Virus record (IMG/VR): IMGVR_UViG_3300003187_000161
Span: 1-26,322 of that record
DNA: 26,322 nucleotides
Source of the DNA: a virus
Direction: 5' to 3' (one strand)
The position numbers and the translations under genes were made by a program. Each line of letters starts with the position of its first letter. The first letter of the stretch is position 1. This document shows positions 4,741-24,763 of the stretch, one piece after another. The notes beneath the pieces were generated by a model. It ran no database searches. It was not told the origin of the DNA and was given only the letters and a program-made list of their open reading frames with translations.

Positions 4741-7068
4741 TCAAAGATTGAAAGCGTCTCGTTTGGTGAAGGTCACTACACCATTGTCGTTGATGACCCT
4801 GGTACCGCTCGGGCGCTCAGTGGTGCACTCGACATACGTGGTTGTGAAGTCTGCGGGAATTGACGTGCGGCCAGAGACGGGATTCACGCCACCCCAAAGC
4901 TCGCCATTGACTGGTGTGCCGATGTGGACGCCCTTTATTTCGACAATTGCCTTGCCGCCCGCATAGCCCCCCGACAGATAGCCGTAGAGGCCGACGCCGC
5001 CGGGGTCTAGGTCGGTGCCCTCGACCGTACCGGCTGCAAACATCGCGATCTCGGCAGGAGCATTGGCACCGCCAATGACTTCGATTTGGGCGTTGGCGCA
5101 CCTGGCAATCTTACCACCAATGATTTTGAAGTCGCAGCTCGCGGGGACAATTCCGTCCTTCCCGCAGTCGACTATGTCTGGGTTGATCACGATCATCTTG
5201 GCCCGCAGGCCCACGCTCGATGCATGATTGGAAATGGCATCCCCGTTGATGCTCCGTTTCATCTTTGGATGATCATAGACAGATACCGGCGGCGCCAAGA
5301 GGGTTTCGGCATAGCCGGCCGGGAACGTGCGCGCTGCCAGGTCGTTCTGAGCCGCGTCCCACCAGCAGTCCTGATAGTAAGCGTTGCCCGCAGCGTCCTC
5401 GGTCCCATTCACCTCGGCCCATTCGAAGCCGCAATGACGGAATACCGCGGTTGCCCGGTCGAGATAGACGTTGTAGATGCCGCCCCGGCTGAACACGACG
5501 TTCTCGCACTCGATCTGCGGCGCGCCGATGCAGTATAGCGTGGCTTCGCTGATGTTGACTTCCATCGGCGTTGCGGCTGGCACGGTTCCCAGACTGTCGG
5601 GGATGCGGACGTAGAGGTTTCCCCCGGAGACGCGCCGCCCGCCCGCAGTCTCGGTCTCAAGAGTTGCGGGAGCAACACCCCTATATGGCAAGATGCTGTC
5701 AGGCAGGCTGTACCAGGGCCTAGGGTTCATGGCCACGCCGATCAAGTAAATCCCGCCCGAATTGGCTGTGTTGGCGTTGCCGGCCGCGTTTTTGTTAGGT
5801 CGGAAATAGACCTTGGTCGTGCCGCCGAGCAGGGTCCAGTCGGCGGGAGTGTGCTCAGCGCTGATGATCTTGGTCTGTGACCCACCCCGGCCCCGGATCC
5901 TGTACCGGGCGAACACCTTGTCATCCGCTACGATCGCGGCGCGCAACTCGGCCGACAGGATCCTCACATCGAGTGTCGACAGCCGGTTGGCGAGGGCGAT
6001 GGCGACCGCCTCGTCCCAGGTCTTGACTGGCGCCGACAGCATGCCGTTGCCGCTGATCGCGGCGCCGCTGTCGACGTGCACAACCGTGCCGTTGAAACCG
6101 ATCCGCTTCACGCTGATGAGCGTCGCTGAAGCACTGACCGGCGTAACGATGCCGACAACGACACGGCCAATCGGCAGCACGCCGGGCGCCGACACCTTGA
6201 CCTTGGAGATGCCGTTGACAAACATCTCCAGGTTCAGGCTCCGGTTCGAGAGCACCTGCGCCTTGATTTTCAAAACATCGTTGACGGCAAACGGCGCGGG
6301 CTGCGCATCCGTGCCTGCTTGCGGAACGGTGGCATAGCCTGAGACGATGCCGCCGACGCCTTGGTAGTTCTGGCCGTAGATTCCGGCGCCGGCCGCAGGA
6401 TTGCGCCAGTGATATAGGATTGCTCCGGTTGAGATATCGCCCGAAGTTGCGGTGTCGGTGCCGATGAACGGCCCACCGTCCCCGCCGATCGTGCCGGCGG
6501 TGAGTTTGAACTCAGCCTCGATTGTGTCTCCTGGGACCAGGTCATAAGGCATCTTTACCCCGACCGGCCATACCTGCGGCAGTGCCCCGGTCGTGTCGAT
6601 CTTATAGGAAGCTTCCGTCGCGGTGATAGTCCAGCGCGTGGCCGGATTCGAGATTGTCGTCCAGGTCTGCCCGTAACCGGTTTTCGCCTTGAAGTTGGCT
6701 CGAGCAGGCAGGCCAGGCACACCGGTCTTGATGTCGTCGATGTCGCCGTTGGTAACGTCGATCCGCGTTTCAATGGATGAGATTCGGTCTACGCCCGCGA
6801 TCCACTGATTCAGGGAGTCGTTGAACACCCAGACGGTCGGAAAATTGTTGGCCGCGGTCGGATCGGACCACAGCAGCGCGGGCGTGCCGTCCTCCTGCGT
6901 CAGGTCGGCATCCATGACCCCCTTGTTGGGATAGGTCTTCATGCCTGCGGCCGTGGCGATGGCCTCGAGGAACCGGCCCCAGCGGCGGACGTCCACCTTG
7001 TTCGGCTCGTGGACCGAGCCGTCGGGGTTGTAGTCCGCCCAGATCTCGTCAACATTCGGCGTGGCCAT
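4741..7068 (-). CDS. Tailspike / tail fiber with beta-helix domain
   Basis: A 775-aa receptor-binding protein. Residues 1-~100 form a virion-attachment head (MATPNVDEIWADYNPDGS onward, with NDSLNQWIAGVDRI near 83-96). Residues ~120-320 look like a beta-sandwich (carbohydrate-binding/concanavalin-like) domain. From ~330, VVHVDSGAAISGNGMLSAPV introduces a right-handed parallel beta-helix typical of polysaccharide-degrading or polysaccharide-binding tailspikes, running to ~740 through repeated short strands such as DFKIIGGKIARCANAQIEVI. It is the last virion gene before the O-antigen cassette, and its stop converges with the methyltransferase. Co-location suggests that its target is the same surface polysaccharide the cassette alters. 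Catalytic residues cannot be assigned by eye. Confidence 0.85.
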   Translation of the reverse strand: MATPNVDEIWADYNPDGSVHEPNKVDVRRWGRFLEAIATAAGMKTYPNKGVMDADLTQEDGTPALLWSDPTAANNFPTVWVFNDSLNQWIAGVDRISSIETRIDVTNGDIDDIKTGVPGLPARANFKAKTGYGQTWTTISNPATRWTITATEASYKIDTTGALPQVWPVGVKMPYDLVPGDTIEAEFKLTAGTIGGDGGPFIGTDTATSGDISTGAILYHWRNPAAGAGIYGQNYQGVGGIVSGYATVPQAGTDAQPAPFAVNDVLKIKAQVLSNRSLNLEMFVNGISKVKVSAPGVLPIGRVVVGIVTPVSASATLISVKRIGFNGTVVHVDSGAAISGNGMLSAPVKTWDEAVAIALANRLSTLDVRILSAELRAAIVADDKVFARYRIRGRGGSQTKIISAEHTPADWTLLGGTTKVYFRPNKNAAGNANTANSGGIYLIGVAMNPRPWYSLPDSILPYRGVAPATLETETAGGRRVSGGNLYVRIPDSLGTVPAATPMEVNISEATLYCIGAPQIECENVVFSRGGIYNVYLDRATAVFRHCGFEWAEVNGTEDAAGNAYYQDCWWDAAQNDLAARTFPAGYAETLLAPPVSVYDHPKMKRSINGDAISNHASSVGLRAKMIVINPDIVDCGKDGIVPASCDFKIIGGKIARCANAQIEVIGGANAPAEIAMFAAGTVEGTDLDPGGVGLYGYLSGGYAGGKAIVEIKGVHIGTPVNGELWGGVNPVSGRTSIPADFTTTYVECTTERPSGTRVINDNGVVTFTKRDAFNL

Positions 7069-7118: not shown

Positions 7119-10100
7119 TCAAGCGGCGCCGACGCCGACCATGTAGCCGTTCAAGGCGGTGCGCAGCGCGGCGACCTCGGCACCGCTCAGGCCGCCGCCC
7201 CAGCAGGCGGCGGAGACCCTGGCATTCGAAAAGCCCGAACCGCCGCGCAGCACATGAAAGGCGCCGGAGGCCAACGCCGCGGACGCGCGGGTCACCGGCA
7301 TTGAATTGGCGTCCTGATAGGCGGTGTAGCCGGCCGAAGCCTGACGGCTCCAGGCGTAGAAACCGGTGCCGGCGCCGGTCTGGGCCGGAATGTCGGCGGC
7401 GGCCGCATTGGACATGCACCACAGCACCGCCGTCGGGTTCCTGCACGCGATCAGCGCCTGCCCTCCGCCAGCCTCGCGATAGGTGCCCTGCACGCTGCCG
7501 CTGGATGCCAGGTTGGTCCAGACCGCAAGATGCGAGCTGTCCTGGAGGAACTGGTTGGATCCGACGGTGGCGCTGAACGTCCCGGCGAGATAGCCGCCCG
7601 CCGTCGCGCCGGCGCCTCCGCCCTGCCAGCCGCGATCCGCGGTGAAGGTCGGCGCCGTGGTGACGGTGGTCGCCGTCAGCCCCGTCGCGTGACTCTTCCA
7701 CTCCAGCAGCGACGCCTGGCTGTCATGCGCCGCCAGGACGAACAGCCGGTCGATCCTGGTCCAGACGGCGGCCGACTTCAGCGCATCGACCAGGGTCTTG
7801 ATCAGGGACTGGCGCACGAAGTCCGGCCGGTTCGTCATGGCCGTGATGATCGCCCAGGCGTCGGCGTCGATCGCGACGACGGTGATCGCCACCGAGCCTG
7901 AAGCCACGCTCTCGTTGCCGCCGACGGTCTGCTTCGCCGTCATGGCGTTGGCGCCGATGCCGAGATCGGTCGAGGGCGTCACCGTCCAGCTGCCGTCGCC
8001 GGCGGCCGTGGCGGTGCCGACCTGCACCGCATTGGCGTAGAGCTTGATCGATGCTCCGGCCGTGGCGCCGTTGCCGGCCACCGCGGGCCGCTTGTCGTAG
8101 CTGCTGATCGGCCCGGCCGGGCTGGTGATCGCCGGCGCCGCCGGCGACACCTCCGCCAGGACGCCGCCAAGCGGCGCGCTCTCGACGTTGCTCCAGTTCG
8201 ACGACGTGGCAAAATAGTACCAGTCGCCGGCCGCCGGGGGCGTATCGACATGGGTCTGGGTCGACAGCGGCGCGCAATACAGCGGCCCGTCGATCAGCGT
8301 CGCCCCGGCGAAGCTGTTGCTGCCGTTCCGGAAGAAGCGCAGCGACAGGTGCCGCGGATCGTTCGGCGCCTTGGCGGAGACGGTCACCTGCCCCGTAGCC
8401 GGCACATTCGCCTGCGCGGTCAGGCTGATCGGGGATGCCGGCGCCACCGGATCGGCCACCGCGGTGAAGGTCGCGGGCGGCGCCGACCAGTCGCTGCCCG
8501 ATCCCCGTGGCCCGATGAACCGCACCTGCGCCTCATAGGCCGTGCCGTCCTCCAGCGGGAAGGTCTCGACCTGATTGTCGTCCTGCGCCACCGGCAGCGG
8601 CTGCCAGGGAGCAGCAGGATCGGTCACCGGCCGATAGCGGGCCTTCGCCACATAGACCGACCGCGGCGGCGGGTCCCAGGTGACGACGCCGACCGCGACG
8701 GGCGTCTGCGTGTTGTAGAGGCGATGCGCGATGGCGACCGTGACGTTTTCCGGTACCGGCACCTCGGCATCGTCGTCGCTGTTCGGCGGCGGGATGGCGG
8801 GGTCCTGCTCATCGGTCGCCGCGGTCCACTCCCACCAGGCGTCGTAGCTGGTCACCTCCAGGCTCACCGTCATGTCGGCCTGGTTGAGGCTCATGCTGGT
8901 GATCTCGAACAGCGCGTCGATGTCGAGCTCGGCGATCTGCAGCCGGATCCACCGCTCGCCCCAGGCATCGAGCCCGGCCAGCATCGTCCGGATGCGGCCG
9001 GTATGCGAGGGATTGCCGCGCCTCAGGACCTCCCTGGCGACGCGCTGGGCCTGGCTCTCGGACGGGACGAAGCGCAGCTTGACCTGGCTGCTCTCGACGC
9101 CGTTGCGGTCGATCGCCGCCTGGTCGAGCTGGATGCCGGCCTCGGTCTCCGTCCATTCCCAGGCCTGGCTGACATAGGTCGCCCGCACCTCGTTGATGCG
9201 CTCGATCGCGGGCTTGCCCTGGTTCAGGTCCCATTCGAGGATATGGTCCTCGGTCAGCGTGACCGCGGCGGTCGGCCCCGGCGCGCCGACCGTCAGGCCC
9301 AGCCTGCCGTCCGGTCCCTGGATGATCCGGCCGCCGCACGCGTCCAGCAGATCCTGCAGCACTGCCTTGCGGTCCTCGGTCAGCTCATAGGCGCCCCAGG
9401 CCCGCCAGCGCTTCTCGGTGCCGCCTGCCTTCAGCGGAATCTCCTGGTCGCAGATGTCGGCGGCGGCCGCGAAGCTGTCCAGGTCGATCCGGTCGAGCGC
9501 GATGCCGAAGCCGACCGGAACGCCCCGCTCCAGGCGCGTCATGTAGTCCAGGACCACCAGCGCCGCATTGTCCGACCAGGTCCAGGTCGCCTCGTCGTCG
9601 ATGTCCTGGTCTGCAGGACCGGTCCCCGCCGCGCGCGGGTCGAAGACCTTGGCGCCCCGCAGCACCGTCCGGTACGGCGGCGGCCCGGACGGGAAGACTT
9701 TGATCTGATCCTCGTCCTTGAGGTCGGCATACTTCACATAGGTGCAGCACAGGCCGCGGCCACGGTGATCCGTCGTCCAGAAATCGTCGTCGATGTCGGT
9801 GATGCTCTGGTCCGGCGCGCCGGGCCAATGCACGATCGTGACAACCTCGAACTTGCCCCATGGGTCATCGGTGACCACGCCGTCATCGACCTGCACCCGC
9901 TCGTCGTTCAGCCAATGCTCTTCCAGCGCGTCGCACTCATGCGCGGCATGGCAGATCAACGTCTTCAGATCGCCGTCCGGCGTGCTGTCGTAGTAGAGGA
10001 ACACGCCGCCCAGGCGCTGGCGGCCGTACAGACGCGTCCGCGGCGGGATGGCCTGTTTGACGCTGACATCGCCGTCCTGCATCTTCGGCTTGTCCGGCGT

Positions 10101-10880: not shown

Positions 10881-11507
10881 TCAGTGACGCGGCCACGCCA
10901 CGTCGCGGTCGACGAGCTTCGGCGGAAACTGGCAGCCGAGGTCGCCTGGGAATCGGCGCTGCTGGTCCCGGTCGGTCAGCAGCCCGAACGGCGCCCGGCT
11001 CCGCTGCGCGAACAGCGTCTCGCAGGGCAGCCTGATGGTCCGCAGCGTCGGGCCGGTCGCGGTGAAGCTGGGCTTCTGCATGGTCCAGATGCCGAGCGTG
11101 AGAAGTTCTCCGAGCGGCACCAGTCCCCCCGGGATGGTGGCGTCGTAGAACCCGATCTGCACCGTCAGGTCGCGTCCTTCGATCTTGTCCGGGTCCGTGC
11201 TCTTGGCCGCCGCTACGACGGTGGAGTCGACGCCGTTCAGCGTCAGGCTGAGCTGCGGCGCCGTGCCGTTGGCCGCCTGCTCCAGCCCGTCGATCGACTG
11301 CAGCGGATTGCCGCTGCCGTCGACCCGTTGCCCCATGCCGATCCAGTCGACGCCGCCGCGCCAGATCGGGCCGTCGCCCTCCCACACTTGCAGGGTGCCG
11401 CCACTGAAGGCGAAGGTCACGAACAGGGCGCAGACCACATGCTGGCCCCGCGCCTGGGCGCGGACCGGATCCTCGAGCGGCGGCGGAGGGGTCGGGAAGA
11501 AGGCCAT
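10881..11507 (-). CDS. Minor tail / baseplate hub protein
   Basis: A 208-aa protein directly after the 225-aa minor tail gene and two genes before the NlpC-like protein. The middle part is a beta-rich hub-like domain (WRGGVDWIGMGQ, LSLTLNGVDSTVV, LTVQIGFYDATIPGG). The C-terminus has LTDRDQQRRFPGDLGCQFPP followed by a closing WP, the R.D.DQ..R.PGD pattern seen in phage and GTA tail hub proteins. By gene order it corresponds to GTA gp13 (DUF2163-like), though I cannot confirm the family. The start at 11507 uses GAGGTG, shared with the end of the preceding gene. Confidence 0.68.
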   Translation of the reverse strand: MAFFPTPPPPLEDPVRAQARGQHVVCALFVTFAFSGGTLQVWEGDGPIWRGGVDWIGMGQRVDGSGNPLQSIDGLEQAANGTAPQLSLTLNGVDSTVVAAAKSTDPDKIEGRDLTVQIGFYDATIPGGLVPLGELLTLGIWTMQKPSFTATGPTLRTIRLPCETLFAQRSRAPFGLLTDRDQQRRFPGDLGCQFPPKLVDRDVAWPRH

Positions 11508-11508
11508 G

Positions 11509-12186
11509 TCACCACACCTCCACGAGGTCCAGCGTCGCCGTGCCGGTGCGAGCGAGCTGCAGCTCGAAGGCCCCGCTGTCGTCGGTCGACAGCCGCATCG
11601 GCGCCCGGGCACGGCACCATTCGACCGTAGCCCCCTCGGCGGCGCCGGCGCGCAGTTTCGGCCGGATGTCGAGCACCGTCTCCTCGTTCGGTTCCGGGTC
11701 GACGCCGACGACGACATGGAGATGGCCGCCAAGGCCGAGAAAGCTGCCTTCCAGCACCGGCAGCACGGTCGATCCGTTGACGATCCGGATCGTCGTGGCG
11801 CCGGCCGCGGCCGGCTCCGCCAAGGTCGGCGCGGCGCCGCCCTGCCTGAAACCGGAGCCGTCGCTGTGCAGCGACCGATCGCTGTAGGGGATGTCGTCCA
11901 CCACCGGAATCAGCCGGTTGCCGTTGCGGCAGTCGCAGGGCCCGACGCGGACCGCGTTGGTCCGGCCGTCGAGGCGGGCCAGCAGCGACCGCATGGCCCG
12001 GATCTTGGCCGGCGTGTGTAGTGGCACGGTCAGTTGCGCCACCCAGCGGCCGAGATTCGATGTCACGACCTGCTCGCGGCCGGAGATGGTCTCACCGCCG
12101 GAACGGGTGCGCGCGTCGATCCGGAAGGTCTCGGCATTGGCGATCAGGATCGCCGGCCAGTCGTAGATGATCATCGGCGTGCTCAT
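11509..12186 (-). CDS. Minor tail protein, intact copy of a duplicated gene
   Basis: A 225-aa protein starting MSTPMIIYDWPAILIANAET, with a distinctive GPCDCRNGNRLIPVVDD centre and a beta-rich C-terminus. No named family recognised; its place after a tape-measure end and before the hub gene suggests a distal-tail or minor tail role. The start at 12186 overlaps the mini tape-measure stop (ATGA), exactly as the broken copy at 13469 overlaps the main tape-measure stop. The first ~60 codons are nearly identical to that broken copy. As the intact copy, it is presumably the functional one, and it relies on translation coupling from the 52-codon mini gene. Confidence 0.75.
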   Translation of the reverse strand: MSTPMIIYDWPAILIANAETFRIDARTRSGGETISGREQVVTSNLGRWVAQLTVPLHTPAKIRAMRSLLARLDGRTNAVRVGPCDCRNGNRLIPVVDDIPYSDRSLHSDGSGFRQGGAAPTLAEPAAAGATTIRIVNGSTVLPVLEGSFLGLGGHLHVVVGVDPEPNEETVLDIRPKLRAGAAEGATVEWCRARAPMRLSTDDSGAFELQLARTGTATLDLVEVW

Positions 12187-12223
12187 GCGAAGCGGATCCG
12201 GTGCTGGCGGTTGATCTCGGGCA
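12007..12223. repeat. 217-bp direct repeat, copy 2
   Basis: Matches 13290-13506 without gaps, with 12 mismatches by my count. It covers the last codons of a tape measure and the first ~60 codons of the minor tail gene. The mismatches are mainly transitions at codon third positions, indicating that both copies were once under selection. It is a likely substrate for homologous recombination. Confidence 0.9.
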
Positions 12224-12341
12224 TTGGTGAGACCGCCGCCATGTTGCGGCTGGTGACGGCGGCGACCTGGACCATCGTCCGCTCGTACTGGTCGTACACC
12301 GCCGTGATTTCGACGGTGATCTGGTCGGCGGTGACGGCCAT
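12183..12341 (-). pseudogene. Mini tape measure: N-terminus fused to the last codons, core deleted
   Basis: A 52-aa ORF starting MAVTADQITVEITAVYDQYE, which aligns with the main tape-measure start MAIKTDGITVELRANTVPLE. It ends PEINRQHRIRFA, identical to the last 12 residues of the main tape measure. Everything between (about 590 residues in the main copy) is absent, yet the frame is open and GAGG precedes ATG 12341. It looks like an in-frame internal deletion of a second tape-measure gene. It cannot measure a tail, but it may survive because its stop overlaps the start of the intact minor tail gene, allowing coupled translation. The alternative is a new small protein; no other family recognised. 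Confidence 0.75.
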
Positions 12342-12430
12342 GGACACCTCGAAGCTGGACCCGGCTCGACATCCGGCCGGGACGTGTGGGACGCTGGATA
12401 GGATTTAAAGGTCGGCGCACCGTGTCAGCC

Positions 12431-12471
12431 GTCGAGGCGACCGATTCCGACCAGCCGGGAGAGGCCTCGAC
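12431..12471. repeat. Inverted repeat upstream of the secreted-protein gene
   Basis: GTCGAGGC and GCCTCGAC, 8 bp each, are separated by 25 bp in the divergent gap between the mini tape measure and the plus-strand gene at 12527. It could be an operator or an RNA stem. The gap otherwise holds an A+T-rich run (about 12495-12526) in which a promoter is plausible but not certain. Confidence 0.35.
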
Positions 12472-12526
12472 CCGCGGGCGGGAATGTGAGACAGTTCTTT
12501 TCTATTTTGGGGGGATGAATTTATGA

Positions 12527-12895
12527 ATGCACAACTTTCAACGACGCCGAGTGGCTATGCTCGCGATGCTGCTGGCGGCGGCCGTCTCTCTGCCGGCCGC
12601 CGGGCAGACCCCGCAGCAGTGCCAGGCGCTCTCCCTCGGGCTTAACGCCGGCATCACCGGGCAGATCGCCTCCCTCGAACAGATCAAGGCACTGAGTTTG
12701 CACGAGGCCCAGGTTGCCGCCCTGATCCTGCAGCTCGCCATTGCGAAAACGGTGAGCCCGGAGTTGAAGGCCTCGCTCGAGACGATCGCCGGCCGGTTCC
12801 GCGCGGTGAAAGAGGCCCTCGACAAAGGCTCGGATGAGCGGATCGCGCAGATCTCCGCCGCCGCCGACGCAGTGGAGGCGATCTGCCGACACTGA
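12527..12895 (+). CDS. Secreted two-cysteine helical protein (moron)
   Basis: A 122-aa protein with an N-terminal signal peptide (basic FQRRR, hydrophobic MLAMLLAAAVSLPAAG, cleavage near Ala-Gly-Gln). The mature part is almost wholly helical and has just two cysteines, one near each end (in QQCQAL and AICRH), so a disulfide closing a helical hairpin in the periplasm is likely. A purine-rich GGGGGGAT lies upstream of ATG 12527. It is read opposite to the late operon between a chaperone remnant and the mini tape measure. No family recognised. A periplasmic superinfection-exclusion factor is one possibility, inferred from place and topology only. Confidence 0.7.
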   Translation: MHNFQRRRVAMLAMLLAAAVSLPAAGQTPQQCQALSLGLNAGITGQIASLEQIKALSLHEAQVAALILQLAIAKTVSPELKASLETIAGRFRAVKEALDKGSDERIAQISAAADAVEAICRH

Positions 12896-12908
12896 ACGGC
12901 CTCGGCCC

Positions 12909-13090
12909 TCATCCCGCCAGAAACCCGGTCTCCCGGGCCATCGCCAGCATCACGTCGAAGGCGTCATCGGTCGGCGACGCCGCGGCCGGGGCACCGGCGG
13001 GATCCACGGTCCTGGCATAGGCCCGGCCGACCAGCAGGAACTCGGCCAGGCTCATGCGGCCGATGTCGAGCGGCGAGAGGCCGAGGGAGC
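12909..13090 (-). pseudogene. Remnant of a second tail-chaperone C-terminal (frameshift) domain
   Basis: About 60 codons reading LGLSPLDIGRMSLAEFLLVG then RAYAR and ending ARETGFLAG before a stop. This aligns with the -1 frame extension of the tail chaperone at 16657-16890 (LGLSPREIGGLSLAEFLIAG then RAYAR, ending RDIGMADVVV). No start codon or N-terminal chaperone part is present: at ~13090 the sequence switches to a fragment of the minor tail gene. It is therefore the 3' relic of a second chaperone gene, cut by recombination. Divergence between the two versions suggests an older duplication or a second phage donor. Confidence 0.8.
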
Positions 13091-13469
13091 TGCTTCGAGC
13101 ACTGGCAGCACGGTCGATCCGTTGACGATCCGGATCGTCGCGGCACCGGCCGCCGTTGGCGCCGCCATCTTCGGCGCGATACCACCCTGCCTGAACCAGT
13201 GCCGTCGCTGCATAGCGACCGGTCGCTATAGGGAATATTGCCAACCACCGGGATCAGTTTGCCGTCGCGGCAGTCGCGGGGCCCAACACGGCCGGCGTGC
13301 GCAGCGGCACGGTCAGCTGCGCCACCCAGCGGCCGAGATTCGATGTGACGACCTGCTCGCGGCCGGAGATGGTCTCGCCGCCGGAGCGGGTGCGCGCGTC
13401 AATCCGGAAGGTCTCGGCATTGGCGACCAGGACCGCCGGCCAGTCATAGATGATCATGGGCGTGCTCAT
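13090..13469 (-). pseudogene. Broken first copy of the minor tail gene
   Basis: Starts like the intact gene at 12186 (MSTPMIIYDWPAVLVANAET) with an ATGA overlap at the tape-measure stop. After codon ~58 (LTVPLRTPA) roughly 60 bp are missing relative to the intact copy, shifting the frame to an early stop at 13254. The old frame is still readable beyond the lesion as RVGPRDCRDGKLIPVVGNIP followed by YSDRSLCSDG. Homology to the intact gene ends at ~13090, where the chaperone remnant begins. The frame may still give a truncated ~71-aa peptide. It is one half of the duplicated tail block. Confidence 0.88.
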
Positions 13470-13506
13470 GCGAAGCGGATCCGGTGCTGGCGGTTGATCT
13501 CGGGCA
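13290..13506. repeat. 217-bp direct repeat, copy 1
   Basis: Partner of 12007-12223 (12 mismatches, no gaps by my count). It spans the real tape-measure 3' end and the start of the broken minor tail gene. Weaker homology continues from 13289 to about 13090, matching 11946-11743. Confidence 0.9.
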
Positions 13507-15388
13507 CGCTGGTCAGGCCCCGCTTGACCGCCGCCGCGGCGATCTCGGCGATGGTGCGGTCGCCATTGGCGCCGGCCATGGAGATGTTGAAGGTGATCGG
13601 CTGGCTCGATCCGCCGCCGCTCCCGGCCGCCGCCTTGACGACGTGGTTCGGGATCACCTGGCCCGGCACCGACGGGGCGAACCATTCCCGGCCGGTCTCG
13701 CCGACTTGGTAGAGCTTTCCGGGAAGCACCTGGCCGCCGCCGGCGCGGCTGCCACCGAACAGTCCCCCGAAGAGACTTCCGAAAAGGCTTCCGATCCCGC
13801 CCCACACCACGCCGCCGGCTGAACCGCCTGATGAAGCATCGGACGGCCCGGCGAGCCAGCTCAGCAGCCCGGCCCCGCCACTATCCACGCCGAAGAGCTG
13901 ATTGAACACGCCGCCGAGCGCGCCCTGCCCGAACAGCCCCTTGCCTGCGAGGTCCAGCAGGCCGAGCCCGATGCTGTCCAGCGCGTCGTTGAAATCCTTG
14001 GCCCCTTTGATGCCGTTGGTGAAGACGTCGCCGACGGCGGTGATGGCTTCAGCCACCTCCTTCTGTCGCGTCTTGGCCTCGTCTTGGGCCTTCGTGTGCT
14101 CCGCCTGCGTGATGATGCCAGCTTTCAGCTGTGCGTCGTGCACAGCCTCCTGGACGGTCAGCGCCTCCAGCTCGGCCCTATAAGTGGCGATCAGAGGCAC
14201 GGCCGCTTCCAGCAAGCCGGCGAATTTCTCCTGGTCGGACAGGAACAAGGAGGAACGGCCAACCGGTTCGATCTCGCCGGCCGAAGGACGACGCACCGCG
14301 CCCCCGGTCGCGCGATCGGGGCGAGGGGTCGGGACGATGGTGTAGTCGCTCTTGTCCCTGGCGGGGGTGGTCGGCGCGATTGTCGGCTGTACTGTCTCCG
14401 TCGTCTCTCCTCCCGTGTCGCCGGGTATCTGTGTTCCGTTCGCCAGACGGGCGGCAAGCACGGCCCTCTGCCCTTGGACCAAGCCCAACCACTCTCGAAA
14501 ATCTCTTTGCTTGTCCGCCGCCGCATAGATCGGAAGACCGGTGTCGCCTGGCGCTCTCCCGATCTTGGAATACAGATCAACAAAGTCGATATCCGCCAAA
14601 TCTTTACCGGCATTCTCGTCAAAGAATGCCACAACATCTTTTGTGTATTCAATACGCTTTAGATCTTCGTCATTACCATAAATCTGCTCCTGATTTTCTC
14701 CAAACATGTTTTTTCTGAATTGGACCTGTTCATTCTGCTTGTTCAGCAAATCTCGATAGAGAGGCAACTGCCAACCAAGATCCGAAAATAGATCTCTAAT
14801 CTCATTCTGATATTTGCCGCGTTCCGTCAGAATGGCGCTGTCCACCCGATCCCTTTCCAGTGTCGCTTCACTAGGCGACATGGCCGTAGCACGTTCTTCG
14901 GTCTCCGGGATCGAGTGTCCGAGCCGCTGCGCCACCGCCTCTCGGGTGAGGGCGCTTTGCGCCGGATTGGAACTGCTGGGAAAGAAATCTGAGAGGGAGG
15001 TCAAATCGGCGACGAAACCTATCCCGTCCTTCACCCAGTCTAAAGCGCTGGCTACCTGGATCCGAGACCGCGGATCCGACCGGATGCGCGCAGGTGACAG
15101 ATCCTCGACGCTGAACAGTCGCCGGGCTTCGGCCACCGACTGGGCTTTCAGCAGTTGAGTCCCCAGGCCCTGCATCCCGTCACGGGGCATTGCTCCAGTG
15201 TAAACGGCCTGCATTTTCGCAGCCGCCTTGCCGGCTTGCTGCGCCCGTATGTCGGCGCCGTTCCGAGCCGCTTGCGTCATGCGTCTTTCAGCGCGTTCCG
15301 TCGCGGCGCCGGCAGTTGCCAGGCCTCGCTCCAACGGTACAGTGTTCGCCCTGAGTTCGACGGTGATCCCATCCGTCTTGATGGCCAT
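13466..15388 (-). CDS. Tail tape measure protein
   Basis: A 640-aa protein that sets tail length and is ejected during infection. The N-terminus (MAIKTDGITVELRANTVPLE) and helical Ala/Arg/Gln-rich segments to ~60 are typical. A central charged helical region follows. The C-terminal third has hydrophobic Gly/Phe/Leu-rich stretches (SIGLGLLDLAGKGLFGQGAL, GSLFGSLFGGLFGGSRAGGG) and the classical tape-measure terminus YQVGETGREWFAPSVPGQVI. The start at 15388 has AAGGAGGC at good spacing. The length predicts a fairly short siphovirus tail. The DNA for residues ~195-270 (14580-14810) is clearly A+T-richer than the rest, suggesting an exchanged core. The 3' end lies in a direct repeat with 12007-12223. 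Confidence 0.9.
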   Translation of the reverse strand: MAIKTDGITVELRANTVPLERGLATAGAATERAERRMTQAARNGADIRAQQAGKAAAKMQAVYTGAMPRDGMQGLGTQLLKAQSVAEARRLFSVEDLSPARIRSDPRSRIQVASALDWVKDGIGFVADLTSLSDFFPSSSNPAQSALTREAVAQRLGHSIPETEERATAMSPSEATLERDRVDSAILTERGKYQNEIRDLFSDLGWQLPLYRDLLNKQNEQVQFRKNMFGENQEQIYGNDEDLKRIEYTKDVVAFFDENAGKDLADIDFVDLYSKIGRAPGDTGLPIYAAADKQRDFREWLGLVQGQRAVLAARLANGTQIPGDTGGETTETVQPTIAPTTPARDKSDYTIVPTPRPDRATGGAVRRPSAGEIEPVGRSSLFLSDQEKFAGLLEAAVPLIATYRAELEALTVQEAVHDAQLKAGIITQAEHTKAQDEAKTRQKEVAEAITAVGDVFTNGIKGAKDFNDALDSIGLGLLDLAGKGLFGQGALGGVFNQLFGVDSGGAGLLSWLAGPSDASSGGSAGGVVWGGIGSLFGSLFGGLFGGSRAGGGQVLPGKLYQVGETGREWFAPSVPGQVIPNHVVKAAAGSGGGSSQPITFNISMAGANGDRTIAEIAAAAVKRGLTSVPEINRQHRIRFA

Positions 15389-15661
15389 GAAGCCTCCTTC
15401 AGCCAGATCGTGGGTCTGGACTCTCGGCTGGAGTTCTGGAATTGTTCCGTCGGAAGGTTGGAGACCAGGACGCCTCACGGGCGCTCGCCGGTTGCTTTCG
15501 GTTGCTGGCTGAGCCGGCACGGTCCTCTGGACCGAGACGTGATGTCGCTATCCAGCCGCCAGGGCGACAAGGGCGGTCTGCCGTGACCCGCGGCAGCAGT
15601 TTGGAAGAGATATTGGAAGCCTTACCGGCGCTGATTGGATTCGATATTGAGGGAAACGACC

Positions 15662-16141
15662 GTGTCCGCTGAACGGCTCTTCATCCTGTTCTGTTTCGCC
15701 CTGGTCACTGCCATCGTGGCGTATATCCGAGGCAGAAATGTTGTCGGCTGGTTCATCCTCGGCTTTCTGTTCGGCTTCTTTCCTCTGATCATCCTGTTTG
15801 CGCTCAAACGGCTGCCGCGGGGTCCCGTCAAGACCTGCCCGCGCTGCGTCGAAACGGTCTCGGCAGCGGCCCTGGTCTGCCGCCACTGCGGTCACGAATT
15901 CGCGCTACCCCAGCCGTCTGGGGCAAAGCCGTGGCGATCAACGCCCGTCGTCATCGGGGCGCCCCGTGCATTCGCCTCTCGCAACAGCTATGGGCCTATC
16001 GGCTATTCGGTCTTCACCGACGGGTCGGTCGAGGCGACTCTGGACGGAACCCTATGGACCTGGGACAACATCGATGAGTTCCGCCGGGACATCGACCGCA
16101 GGACGCTGTCGGCTTCAGGCGGACGAGGCCGCGGCATTTGA
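15662..16141 (+). CDS. Two-pass membrane protein with zinc ribbon (moron)
   Basis: A 159-aa protein. Two membrane segments (residues ~5-22, LFILFCFALVTAIVAYI, and ~27-48, VVGWFILGFLFGFFPLIILF) are followed by a double-CxxC zinc ribbon with Cys59, Cys62, Cys73 and Cys76 (CPRC...CRHC). A small C-terminal domain reads YGPIGYSVFTDGSVEATLDG. GTG 15662 is preferred because GAGGG lies just upstream; the in-frame TTG at 15635 has no ribosome site. The next gene starts 1 bp after its stop, so the two form an operon. It is inserted opposite to the late genes between chaperone and tape measure. The zinc-ribbon membrane architecture is common in uncharacterised bacterial and phage proteins; function unknown. 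Confidence 0.72.
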   Translation: MSAERLFILFCFALVTAIVAYIRGRNVVGWFILGFLFGFFPLIILFALKRLPRGPVKTCPRCVETVSAAALVCRHCGHEFALPQPSGAKPWRSTPVVIGAPRAFASRNSYGPIGYSVFTDGSVEATLDGTLWTWDNIDEFRRDIDRRTLSASGGRGRGI

Positions 16142-16142
16142 C

Positions 16143-16631
16143 ATGGGTTTCGACTGGCAATCGCCCTTCGACACCGGACGATCCCTGAGCGTCCCGGGCG
16201 GGCGCGACGGCCCCGTCGGAAGAACGCGGAAAGCGGTGAACAAGATCGTGTTCGCCATTCTCCATCTATCACTCAGGATCCTGCTGATCGGGCTCCTCGG
16301 CCTGGTTTTCCTGTTCCTGCTCATTCTCTGGGGAGACGGCGCCTTCACGCCGTATCCGTCGCTACTGGCGAAGGAGTCGTCGAACTTCACTCGGGCGTCG
16401 GAGCCGGAGTTTCAGAGTCGCCTGGAGAGTTGGTACCCACCTGGATCGAGCGAAAGCGAGTTGGTCGCCGCGCTGGTCCGACATCGCTTCGAGACCAATC
16501 CGGGACGCCGGGCTGCCCTGTATCGCATCTCGTCGATCATCTGCGTCGATGAGGCAAACGTGGCCTGGGACGCGGATGAGGCGGGCCATCTGACGGGAAT
16601 ACGCGGATGGTTCGACAGCGTGTGTCTCTGA
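16143..16631 (+). CDS. Single-pass membrane protein, second gene of the moron operon
   Basis: A 162-aa protein with a basic cytoplasmic N-terminus (GRTRKAVNK), one long hydrophobic segment at ~35-62 (FAILHLSLRILLIGLLGLVF onward) and a ~98-residue soluble C-terminal domain probably facing the periplasm. That domain includes SWYPPGSSESELVAALVRHR and two cysteines near its end (IICVD and DSVCL). It starts 1 bp after the zinc-ribbon gene stop and ends 25 bp before the convergent chaperone frameshift stop. No family recognised. Tight pairing with another membrane protein suggests they act together at the inner membrane of the lysogen. Confidence 0.68.
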   Translation: MGFDWQSPFDTGRSLSVPGGRDGPVGRTRKAVNKIVFAILHLSLRILLIGLLGLVFLFLLILWGDGAFTPYPSLLAKESSNFTRASEPEFQSRLESWYPPGSSESELVAALVRHRFETNPGRRAALYRISSIICVDEANVAWDADEAGHLTGIRGWFDSVCL

Positions 16632-16656
16632 ACCACACGCCGCCGCGCCTCACACC

Positions 16657-16890
16657 CTAAACCACGACGTCGGCCATGCCGATGTCCCGCAACGCGTCCA
16701 CCATCGCCGCGAACCCCTCCTCCGACGGCGCCGCGGCCGGCGACGAATCCGACAGCCGGGCATAGGCCCGGCCGGCGATCAGGAACTCGGCCAGGCTCAG
16801 CCCCCCGATCTCTCGGGGGGAGAGGCCGAGAGCGAGTCCCTGGCCGTAGAAGGCCGCGACGTCGATCCGTCCTCCGTCGCGGCCTCCTCT
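16657..16890 (-). CDS. -1 frameshift extension of the tail assembly chaperone (G-T type)
   Basis: A 77-codon open frame with no plausible start codon, beginning at the slippery heptamer and reading GRIDVAAFYGQGLALGLSPR and then EIGGLSLAEFLIAGRAYAR to a TAG at 16657. Joined by a -1 slip to residues 1-134 of the upstream frame it gives a 211-aa fusion. This is the arrangement of lambda gpG/gpGT, in which the longer chaperone recruits the tape measure while the shorter form coats it. A diverged relic of the same domain at 12909-13090 supports its being coding. Confidence 0.78.
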   Translation of the reverse strand, partial: RGGRDGGRIDVAAFYGQGLALGLSPREIGGLSLAEFLIAGRAYARLSDSSPAAAPSEEGFAAMVDALRDIGMADVVV

Positions 16891-17291
16891 TTTCCCGGCT
16901 GATCCCCGCCCTCCCCGTCGCCGGCCTTGTCCTCGCCCAGGGCCTCGGCGACGCCGAAATAAGCGGCGCCCAGCACCGCCTGGGCAACCGCCAGCGCGTT
17001 GTTGGCGTCGCGCGGATCGGCGACGGGCCGGCCATCGACATAGGTCTCGACCAGCTCCCGCGCCCGCGCCGGCGGGAGGCCGCCGCCGATCAGGCCGAGA
17101 CGGATGGTCTCGACCACGTCGGCGGCGTACCAGCGGCCCGAGAACAGCCGCTGCGCGATCTCGCCCAGGCCGGCCCGGCAGAGTCGCTGAAGCTCCTCGA
17201 TCTGCTTCAGCTTCAGGGCGAACAGATAGTCCCCGTCCGCCCAGTTCAGCACCACCTCGGCGGCGATGTTAGGCTGCGTTCCCGTGGCCAT
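16797..17291 (-). CDS. Tail assembly chaperone (GTA-family / Phage_TAC_11 type), zero frame
   Basis: A 164-aa protein located between tail tube and tape measure. The N-terminus VVLNWADGDYLFALKLKQIE and the helical LFSGRWYAADVVETIRLGLI with GLPPARARELVETYVDGRP match the gene transfer agent family / TAC_11 chaperones. The C-terminal ~45 residues are low-complexity and acidic (GEDKAGDGEGGDQPGKEEAA), and the stop is reached after an out-of-character Ser/Arg/Pro tail. The slippery site at codons 132-134 lets some ribosomes leave this frame. The start at 17291 has GGAGAAG upstream. It acts in the cytoplasm during tail assembly and is absent from the virion. Confidence 0.85.
   Translation of the reverse strand: MATGTQPNIAAEVVLNWADGDYLFALKLKQIEELQRLCRAGLGEIAQRLFSGRWYAADVVETIRLGLIGGGLPPARARELVETYVDGRPVADPRDANNALAVAQAVLGAAYFGVAEALGEDKAGDGEGGDQPGKEEAATEDGSTSRPSTARDSLSASPPERSGG
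16890..16896 (-). other. Programmed -1 ribosomal frameshift site GGGAAAA
   Basis: On the minus strand the chaperone codons read CCG GGA AAA, giving X XXY YYZ = G GGA AAA in phase with the zero frame (GGA is codon 133). After a -1 slip the next codon is AGA, which leads straight into the conserved second domain. The heptamer closely resembles lambda's GGGAAAG. Confidence 0.8.
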
Positions 17292-17305: not shown

Positions 17306-17755
17306 TCAGGCGACTGCCGTCCAGGTCGGCTTGCCGTTAAGGGTGACGGCGATCTGCACCGTCACCCGCTGGCCGCGCTGGGCGGTGACCTGGTAGTTGG
17401 TCAGGATCGCCGGTGCCTGGTAATAGCCGCCGAAATCTGCCGCGGTAACGTCGTAGATCCAGCGCACGGTCTTCTCGACGCCGGAGAAGGCCCAGTCTTC
17501 CCAGGTCTTGCGCGCGTTCCGATCCAGGATGCCCTGGCCGGACAGCGTCATCTGCAGCGCGGAGATGTCGGTGATCTTCCAGGCCGGGTCGTCCGGGTTT
17601 TCGCAATCCGGGATGATGCTCTCATTGGTATCGGTGGCGATCGTCATGCCCAGCTCGGTCAGGCCGCAGGGCGCGGCGAAGGTCTCGGTCGGGGTCGCCC
17701 CGTCGCCGAGCAGGATCATGACGTCGCTGAACTTGAAGGTCTTGGCCTGAGCCAT
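17306..17755 (-). CDS. Major tail tube protein
   Basis: A 149-aa protein starting MAQAKTFKFSDVMILLGDGA, with the acidic ISALQMTLSGQGILDRNARK segment and a closing VTVQIAVTLNGKPTWT. The beta-rich pattern and the position directly before the chaperone are those of siphovirus / GTA tail tube proteins, which stack as hexamers around the tape measure. The start at 17755 has GAGGAGAT at good spacing. A terminator-like hairpin lies just upstream at 17776-17797, so this highly expressed gene may have its own 5' control. Confidence 0.85.
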   Translation of the reverse strand: MAQAKTFKFSDVMILLGDGATPTETFAAPCGLTELGMTIATDTNESIIPDCENPDDPAWKITDISALQMTLSGQGILDRNARKTWEDWAFSGVEKTVRWIYDVTAADFGGYYQAPAILTNYQVTAQRGQRVTVQIAVTLNGKPTWTAVA

Positions 17756-17775
17756 CTTGAAGATCTCCTCACATG

Positions 17776-17797
17776 AAAAACCCCGCACGCGGCGGGG
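17776..17797 (-). terminator. Rho-independent terminator-like hairpin before the tail tube gene
   Basis: On the minus strand CCCCGC-CGCGT-GCGGGG is followed by TTTTTC. It lies between the tail-completion gene and the tail tube ribosome site. Unless antitermination operates, it should reduce read-through and separate the head and neck genes from the tail genes. Confidence 0.7.
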
Positions 17798-17836
17798 TCG
17801 GGGCATGCCGGCGGGCGGCACGGAATGAACCGGGCG

Positions 17837-20460: not shown

Positions 20461-20493
20461 GACCGTTCTCCGAAGAATTGGGAAGAGATCGAA

Positions 20494-20633
20494 GCCTGTT
20501 CGAGCATGCGTTCGGGGTGAGTCGGCTGGCGGTGGTATCGAGAACCGGCGCGCAGCGGACGTTAAAGTCCGTGAGCACCGGAAGCGCAGAAACCGCCGTC
20601 AGACGGCCGCCCCGGGCGCATGATCGGACAGGC
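20494..20633. repeat. Structured intergenic element, copy B (after the capsid gene)
   Basis: A ~140-bp element bounded by 17-bp inverted repeats (20494-20510 and 20617-20633, 15 of 17 matching) that fills most of the gap between capsid stop and next gene. The inside closely matches the element at 24630-24763: a GGCGGT/ACCGCC stem, a CCGG/CCGG pair and a CGGAC/GTCCG hairpin whose loop differs between copies. No ORF in it looks real. Confidence 0.8.
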
Positions 20634-23147: not shown

Positions 23148-23197
23148 GGGATCTCCTTGGGATGCGGGCGGGCGAAGCGGCTTCAGCCCTTCATCTG

Positions 23198-23283
23198 TCA
23201 TCACCGGGCTTGACCCGGTGATCCAGAGAATGTCGAGACCGGCACTGGTCGCCCCTGGATTGCCGGGTCAAGCCCGGCAATGA
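23198..23283. repeat. Paired alphaproteobacterial-type intergenic palindrome
   Basis: Two hairpins, ATCACCGGG-CTTGA-CCCGGTGAT (23200-23222) and ATTGCCGGG-TCAAG-CCCGGCAAT (23259-23281), lie within 29-bp outer arms (23198-23226 and 23255-23283) that are inverted repeats of each other at 25 of 29 positions. The four differences keep each hairpin paired. Such CCGGGCTTGACCCGG elements are widespread in alphaproteobacterial chromosomes. This one sits between portal and protease genes. Confidence 0.85.
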
Positions 23284-23307
23284 GAAAAGAAGGGGACGAA
23301 TCGGGCG

Positions 23308-24576: not shown

Positions 24577-24629
24577 GGCCGGCCTCCGAACGTCGAACGG
24601 CGGTCGCTCGATGGGCCTCGCTGCGGAGG

Positions 24630-24763
24630 CCGTTCGAGACCGCGCCTGGGGTGAGTCGAATGGCGGTGGTTTCGAGAACCGGCGCGCAGCGGACATTGGT
24701 CCGTGAGCACCGGAAGCGGAGAAACCGCCGTCAGGCGGCCGCCCCGGGCGCGGTCTCGAACGG
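24630..24763. repeat. Structured intergenic element, copy A (after the terminase gene)
   Basis: A ~134-bp element bounded by perfect 17-bp inverted repeats (24630-24646 and 24747-24763). The inside shares most of its sequence with the element at 20494-20633, including the nested GGCGGT/ACCGCC, CCGG/CCGG and CGGAC/GTCCG pairs. The outer arms differ in sequence from copy B but are self-complementary in both. It begins 3 bp after the terminase stop. Confidence 0.82.

Follow-up and report, generated by a model that had tools for sequence, protein, structure and literature searches.

A decaying double tail block in a siphophage record related to Inquilinus prophages, its spare tape measure gene possibly kept as a coupling leader

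Introduction

Genomes of related temperate phages share sharp-bordered segments, a mosaicism ascribed to illegitimate and homeologous recombination (Martinsohn, Radman and Petit 2008, PMC2327257). For the tape measure protein (TMP), evolution in length through duplication and loss of internal sequence has been described (Belcaid et al. 2011, PMC3271669), and the tail assembly chaperones G and GT of phage lambda, encoded between the tube and tape measure genes, are made with a slippery heptamer, G_GGA_AAx, close to where the chaperone frame ends, and a -1-frame extension (review PMC5009743). A direct precedent for a duplicated tape measure or tail block was not found in searches of the open literature. 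Here, we describe such a locus in the complete IMG/VR record IMGVR_UViG_3300003187_000161, one contig of 26,322 bases (hereafter the window), in which two partial blocks of chaperone, TMP and distal tail protein (Dit) genes lie in tandem (block 1, 17291-13090; block 2, 13090-11509). We consider it probable that two related temperate siphophages of Inquilinus recombined out of register and that the locus, decayed since, is the eroded scar of this event.

With the described mosaicism the window shares sharp-bordered segments, exchanges in diverged homology and a join over short homology, but here parts of one module were joined out of register, so that a double block in decay can still be seen in place of a clean swap. 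Internal loss of a tape measure is also known, but here the loss strips essentially the whole ruler from a redundant copy, which is decay and not a change in tail length. The chaperone resembles lambda G/GT in its heptamer, its -1-frame extension and its place between the tube and tape measure genes; unlike the lambda protein it is a member of the GTA-gp10 family (PF11836), with a moron on the opposite strand between its gene and that of the tape measure, and the relic copy keeps just part of the T-like end. We regard the locus as ordinary phage mosaicism seen in mid-course, with one testable twist.

Two tandem blocks hold one intact set of genes

The original prediction, made from the sequence alone, was that the tail module is present twice. 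Indeed, each feature that it named was found in place (Table 1), and the blocks are linked by three direct repeats which far exceed chance: 12007-12223/13290-13506 (217 bp, 94% identical, also predicted), 11748-11850/13093-13195 (103 bp, 85%) and, in the chaperone extension, 12978-13085/16723-16830 (108 bp, 73%). The copies share one exact run of about 48 bases. Strict duplication covers only the stretch from the TMP end to Dit, and the block fronts are, judged from their sequences, different alleles from different phages; both chaperone-TMP intervals carry opposite-strand genes.

The block 1 chaperone matched PF11836 (E 9e-23) and phrog_8985 and lies in the order tube-chaperone-TMP. It had been taken for a single gene from 17291 to 16657; the gene is present but not in one frame, since a TAC_11 open reading frame (ORF) is followed by a -1-frame extension reached at GGGAAAA. 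This heptamer starts at offset 395 from the chaperone start, on a third codon base, the -1 frame is open to 16657, and the heptamer is kept at the corresponding position of the chaperone in 12/12 relatives. The two frames are joined by a predicted -1 frameshift at G_GGA_AAA. In block 2, the supposed C-terminal relic of the chaperone proved to be just that, with 54-92% identity to the chaperone C-termini of relatives.

A 52-codon tape measure with only its two ends had been claimed for block 2 and was found as well. In this mini-TMP, a 36-aa N-terminus (97% to relative L009) runs in frame into the final ~13 residues of the TMP, and the segment absent at the seam (J2) corresponds to positions ~6062-8161 of L009, or ~2.1 kb by comparison with that genome. 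The gene pair that the prediction called minor tail genes does comprise an intact and a broken copy, but what they encode is Dit, the distal tail protein (phrog_1302). Three stretches of Dit1, lying in different frames, align to Dit2 codons 1-64, 76-113 and 112-147, and Dit1 carries 19 private substitutions, compared with seven in Dit2. Dit2 (dN/dS 0.23-0.38; 0.23-0.28 against L005/L024) and TMP1 (dN/dS 0.33) look constrained, with purifying selection on Dit2. As predicted, only one intact set is present and it is split, with chaperone and TMP1 in block 1 and Dit2 in block 2.

Relatives carry one block and the window is a mosaic

About a dozen relatives, designated by L numbers, were collected by searches with Dit, TMP, chaperone and relic from viral contigs and from genomes of Inquilinus limosus and its close kin; one of them bears the name 'Mycobacterium sp. 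KBS0706', but a genus search placed it with the Inquilinus genomes. Neither phage records (protein search with Dit) nor plasmid records (DNA search) gave a match, so that IMG/VR and Inquilinus genomes are the sole sources of the relatives. Eleven (L007-L012, L015-L017, L024 and L044) could be read across the region, and all of them have a single complete block in the order chaperone, opposite-strand moron(s), TMP, Dit, hub. A widespread double block was rejected on these grounds; among the relatives examined it is private to the window. In each relative covering the region the relic and the mini-ORF matched chaperone and TMP, so that the outcome which would have refuted the original prediction, alignment to unrelated genes, did not occur.

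Sliding DNA comparison of the window with the relatives revealed a mosaic with sharp borders (Table 1), in which the parts on either side of the seam trace to different lineages. On either side (23.0-19.8 and 11.6-8.7 kb) the backbone mostly resembles L009/L017 (~90-99%); the stretch at 18.7-13.7 kb is foreign. After duplication of one block every part should be nearest to its counterpart in the other copy. The relic is nearest to L009, which it joins in the tree (98/93) instead of the block 1 chaperone, and the morons and TMP fronts differ entirely. Block 1 chaperone and relic are not close (best identity of copy 1, 71%), although a forced clade of the two was not rejected (approximately unbiased (AU) test, p 0.19). 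Since the relic goes with L009 and the remainder is a mosaic, the blocks are not descended part for part from one duplicated block. A donor of the block 1 moron and TMP front was sought in Inquilinus genomes and the wider family, which yielded nothing beyond the C-terminal half of the TMP.

Dit lacks a ribosome-binding site and appears to be coupled to the frame upstream

Anti-Shine-Dalgarno pairing was computed for the Dit starts of the window and eight relatives against a background. For the Dit starts the values were -3.3 to -4.1 kcal/mol, close to the background median (-3.8) or weaker, while the mini-TMP reached -9.8 (top 5% of the background), TMP1 -12.1 and the hub -13.2 kcal/mol; Dit has no Shine-Dalgarno (SD) site in the window or in any relative tested. 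The TMP stop overlaps the Dit start as ATGA in 8/11 relatives. In the other three (L010-L012) the TMP is not adjacent to Dit, and the space between the two holds a short SD-led ORF whose end falls on the Dit start or a few bases ahead of it. Since Dit has no SD site and the stop-start arrangement is found throughout, Dit appears to depend on stop-start (ATGA) coupling, ordinarily from the TMP frame. The inserted ORFs are located at 9820-10001 (L010), 5400-5582 (L011) and 9828-10001 (L012), and the Dit start is GTG there.

The mini-TMP keeps exactly what coupling needs, namely an SD site, a start, an open frame and the ATGA, and it has probably been retained as a leader to which translation of Dit2 is coupled: it would persist because Dit2, having no ribosome-binding site of its own, needs a coupled frame upstream. 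The larger claim, that the spare tape measure of a doubled block was pared to a 52-codon ORF kept only for this purpose, is put forward tentatively. Two facts weigh against it. One in three deletions keeps the frame anyway, and the N-terminal part has a dN/dS of 0.62 over 37 codons, so that amino-acid constraint is not shown. The mini-TMP may well be an unselected leftover, with Dit2 translated independently or coupled by chance; against this stand the retention of SD, start, frame and ATGA in the mini-ORF, the purifying selection on Dit2 and the lack of an SD site for Dit in each genome tested. If the mini-TMP is indeed a leader, obligate translational coupling would dictate which parts of a dead structural gene persist, and output of Dit2 would now be uncoupled from that of the tape measure. 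The double block suggests that stop-start coupling of tail genes limits which deletions are tolerated.

Origin of the double block

The original prediction left the choice between recombination of two related phages and an old tandem duplication. The grouping of the relic with L009 and the sharp borders argue for recombination, and simple duplication within one genome proved insufficient. In the cross that we favour, the join would run from inside the Dit gene of one genome to the chaperone extension of the other, via ~10 nt of microhomology: CCTCGGCCTC at seam J1 is a 10-nt stretch common to the L005 Dit and the L009 chaperone. Such a join would leave chaperone-TMP-Dit twice in tandem, and the second chaperone would be truncated by the join itself. 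The redundant pieces would then decay, TMP2 losing its ruler and Dit1 gaining several disabling lesions, until one working set, presumably chaperone and TMP1 of block 1 with Dit2 of block 2, was left. The seam microhomology suits unequal exchange as well, and an L009-like phage may have used it to double its own chaperone-TMP-Dit, after which homologous exchange would have replaced the tube-chaperone-moron-TMP front of block 1 and part of Dit2. It is the last ~250 bp of TMP1, 97-99% L009 as is the front of block 2, which keep duplication plus replacement alive. Yet this course needs an extra replacement over ~5 kb, it has to accommodate a relic that lies with L009 and not near the block 1 chaperone, and codons 2-22 of Dit, over few sites, are L009/L017-like in copy 1 and L024-like in copy 2. 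Because it takes fewer steps, the two-phage cross is preferred, and duplication with replacement is regarded as rather less probable. Under either route, the present state is very likely a scar with decay of redundant genes. Some observations count against the cross: the patterns of seams J1 and J2 are absent from the other viral contigs searched, so that the event rests on one record; a source of the block 1 chaperone, moron and TMP front did not emerge from the searches described above; and the Dit copies are weak sisters in the tree (81/80, four shared private sites), which also fits in-genome duplication. A duplication step may thus be part of the history.

Two further explanations carry much less weight. 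Assembly or amplification could have merged two co-occurring related phages, since the record is a single IMG/VR contig, related phages exist, the copies share the exact run of ~48 bases and the seams are unseen elsewhere; we consider this improbable, as the seams share ~10 nt or less, too short for an assembler join, and an artefact would not create the spare copies' own lesions and private substitutions. The original prediction also saw in the second block a possible reserve for switching tail length. A maintained reserve, for tail length or tail-tip type, could draw on the two blocks with their different alleles and on the flanking homology (217 bp, 94%), which would allow recombination. 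But the second TMP has no ruler left (~2.1 kb gone), Dit1 has breaks at several points, neither G part nor slip site is left in the relic chaperone, and none of the 11 relatives has even two blocks. Switch-like features (a second complete allele or invertible repeats) were not seen. The reserve is hardly credible because the second ruler is absent and recombination between the 217-bp repeats would merely delete one block.

Out-of-register products are to be expected often from illegitimate recombination of related phages but survivors are usually clean, and a half-decayed double block, as left by the cross proposed here, is a useful snapshot of an intermediate stage.

Features of the window

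The minus strand encodes a siphophage structural module whose genes were typed by Pfam and phrog matches, in the order terminase, portal (PF06381), DUF2213, major capsid (PF09950), DUF4054, tail completion (PF11367), tail tube (PF06199), chaperone (PF11836), tape measure, Dit, hub, DUF6950 and tail tip. Coordinates and ancestry are compiled in Table 1.

Table 1 Features of the tail region and ancestry of segments along the window
Feature	Position	Strand	Remarks
Tail tube protein (PF06199, phrog_13196)	17306-17821	-	upstream neighbour
Block 1 chaperone, G-like part (PF11836 Phage_TAC_11, GTA-gp10 family)	16797-17291	-	
Slippery heptamer GGGAAAA	16890-16896	-	-1 type; G_GGA_AAA in X_XXY_YYZ register
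Block 1 chaperone, -1-frame extension (T-like part)	16657-16887	-	
Block 1 moron slot	15635-16631	+	zinc-ribbon membrane protein (15635-16141) and second membrane protein ending at 16631
Block 1 tape measure, TMP1	13466-15388	-	intact, 640 aa; middle L005-like, last ~250 bp L009-like (97-99%)
Block 1 Dit1, N-terminal stub	13254-13469	-	open for 71 codons; ATGA overlap with TMP1 stop
Block 1 Dit1, frame-broken rest	13087-13253	-	58-bp deletion and smaller deletions; cut at codon ~147
Seam J1	13077-13086	-	Dit1 (codon ~147) joined to chaperone -1-frame extension over CCTCGGCCTC
Block 2 relic of chaperone -1-frame extension	12909-13091	-	92% aa to L009; G part and slip site missing
Block 2 moron	12527-12895	+	small secreted-type protein; 84% aa to L009
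Block 2 mini-TMP	12183-12341	-	52 codons; own Shine-Dalgarno; ATGA overlap with Dit2
Seam J2	12222-12240	-	in-frame loss of TMP middle near GGCGGCGG
Block 2 Dit2, distal tail protein	11509-12186	-	intact, 225 codons; L005/L024-like
Tail hub protein (phrog_2048)	10881-11507	-	downstream neighbour; 92-95% aa to L009/L017
Segment	26.0-23.2 kb		L024-like
Segment	23.0-19.8 kb		mostly L017/L009-like, 95-99%
Segment	18.7-14.9 kb		close relative absent: tube and chaperone at 73-91%, neither moron nor TMP front matched
Segment	14.9-13.7 kb		L005-like
Segment	13.7-13.4 kb		L009-like, 97-99%
Segment (relic, moron, TMP start)	13.09-12.2 kb		L009-like, 90-98%; colinear with L009 5210-6062
Segment	12.2-11.6 kb		L005/L024-like
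Segment	11.6-8.7 kb		mostly L017/L009-like

The chaperone-TMP slot of relatives nearly always holds a gene on the opposite strand that encodes a small secreted-type protein (L007, L009, L011, L012, L015, L016, L017, L024 and L028), with a signal-like N-terminus followed by TPQQC or similar. The block 2 moron protein has weak relatives in the corresponding slot of other prophages. Block 1 instead holds unrelated membrane-protein genes there, and these ORFs had no DNA match among the relatives. The middle of TMP1 (14400-15000) is strikingly A+T-rich, its GC content falling to 43% compared with ~62-70% nearby, as if it came from another source. In L017 (10001-10668, the KBS0706 prophage) the Dit gene falls into two frames at codon ~70, so that this copy looks broken, too.

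At the end of the module, a 320-aa ORF (1-963) matched phrog_873 (endolysin) and phrog_7182 (tail injection transglycosylase). An Rfam scan of the window matched no RNA family. A long inverted repeat at 23187-23294, between portal and DUF2213, has CCGGGCTTGACCCGG-type arms (40 nt, 83%) and is also present in L012/L029. An element of ~130 bp occurs twice, after the capsid gene (20490-20619) and after the terminase gene (24624-24751); several related prophages have it behind their capsid gene, too. It is a high-copy repeat in Inquilinus genomes, with at least 40 matches in each of three (84-94% identity), a MITE/REP-like element of the host.

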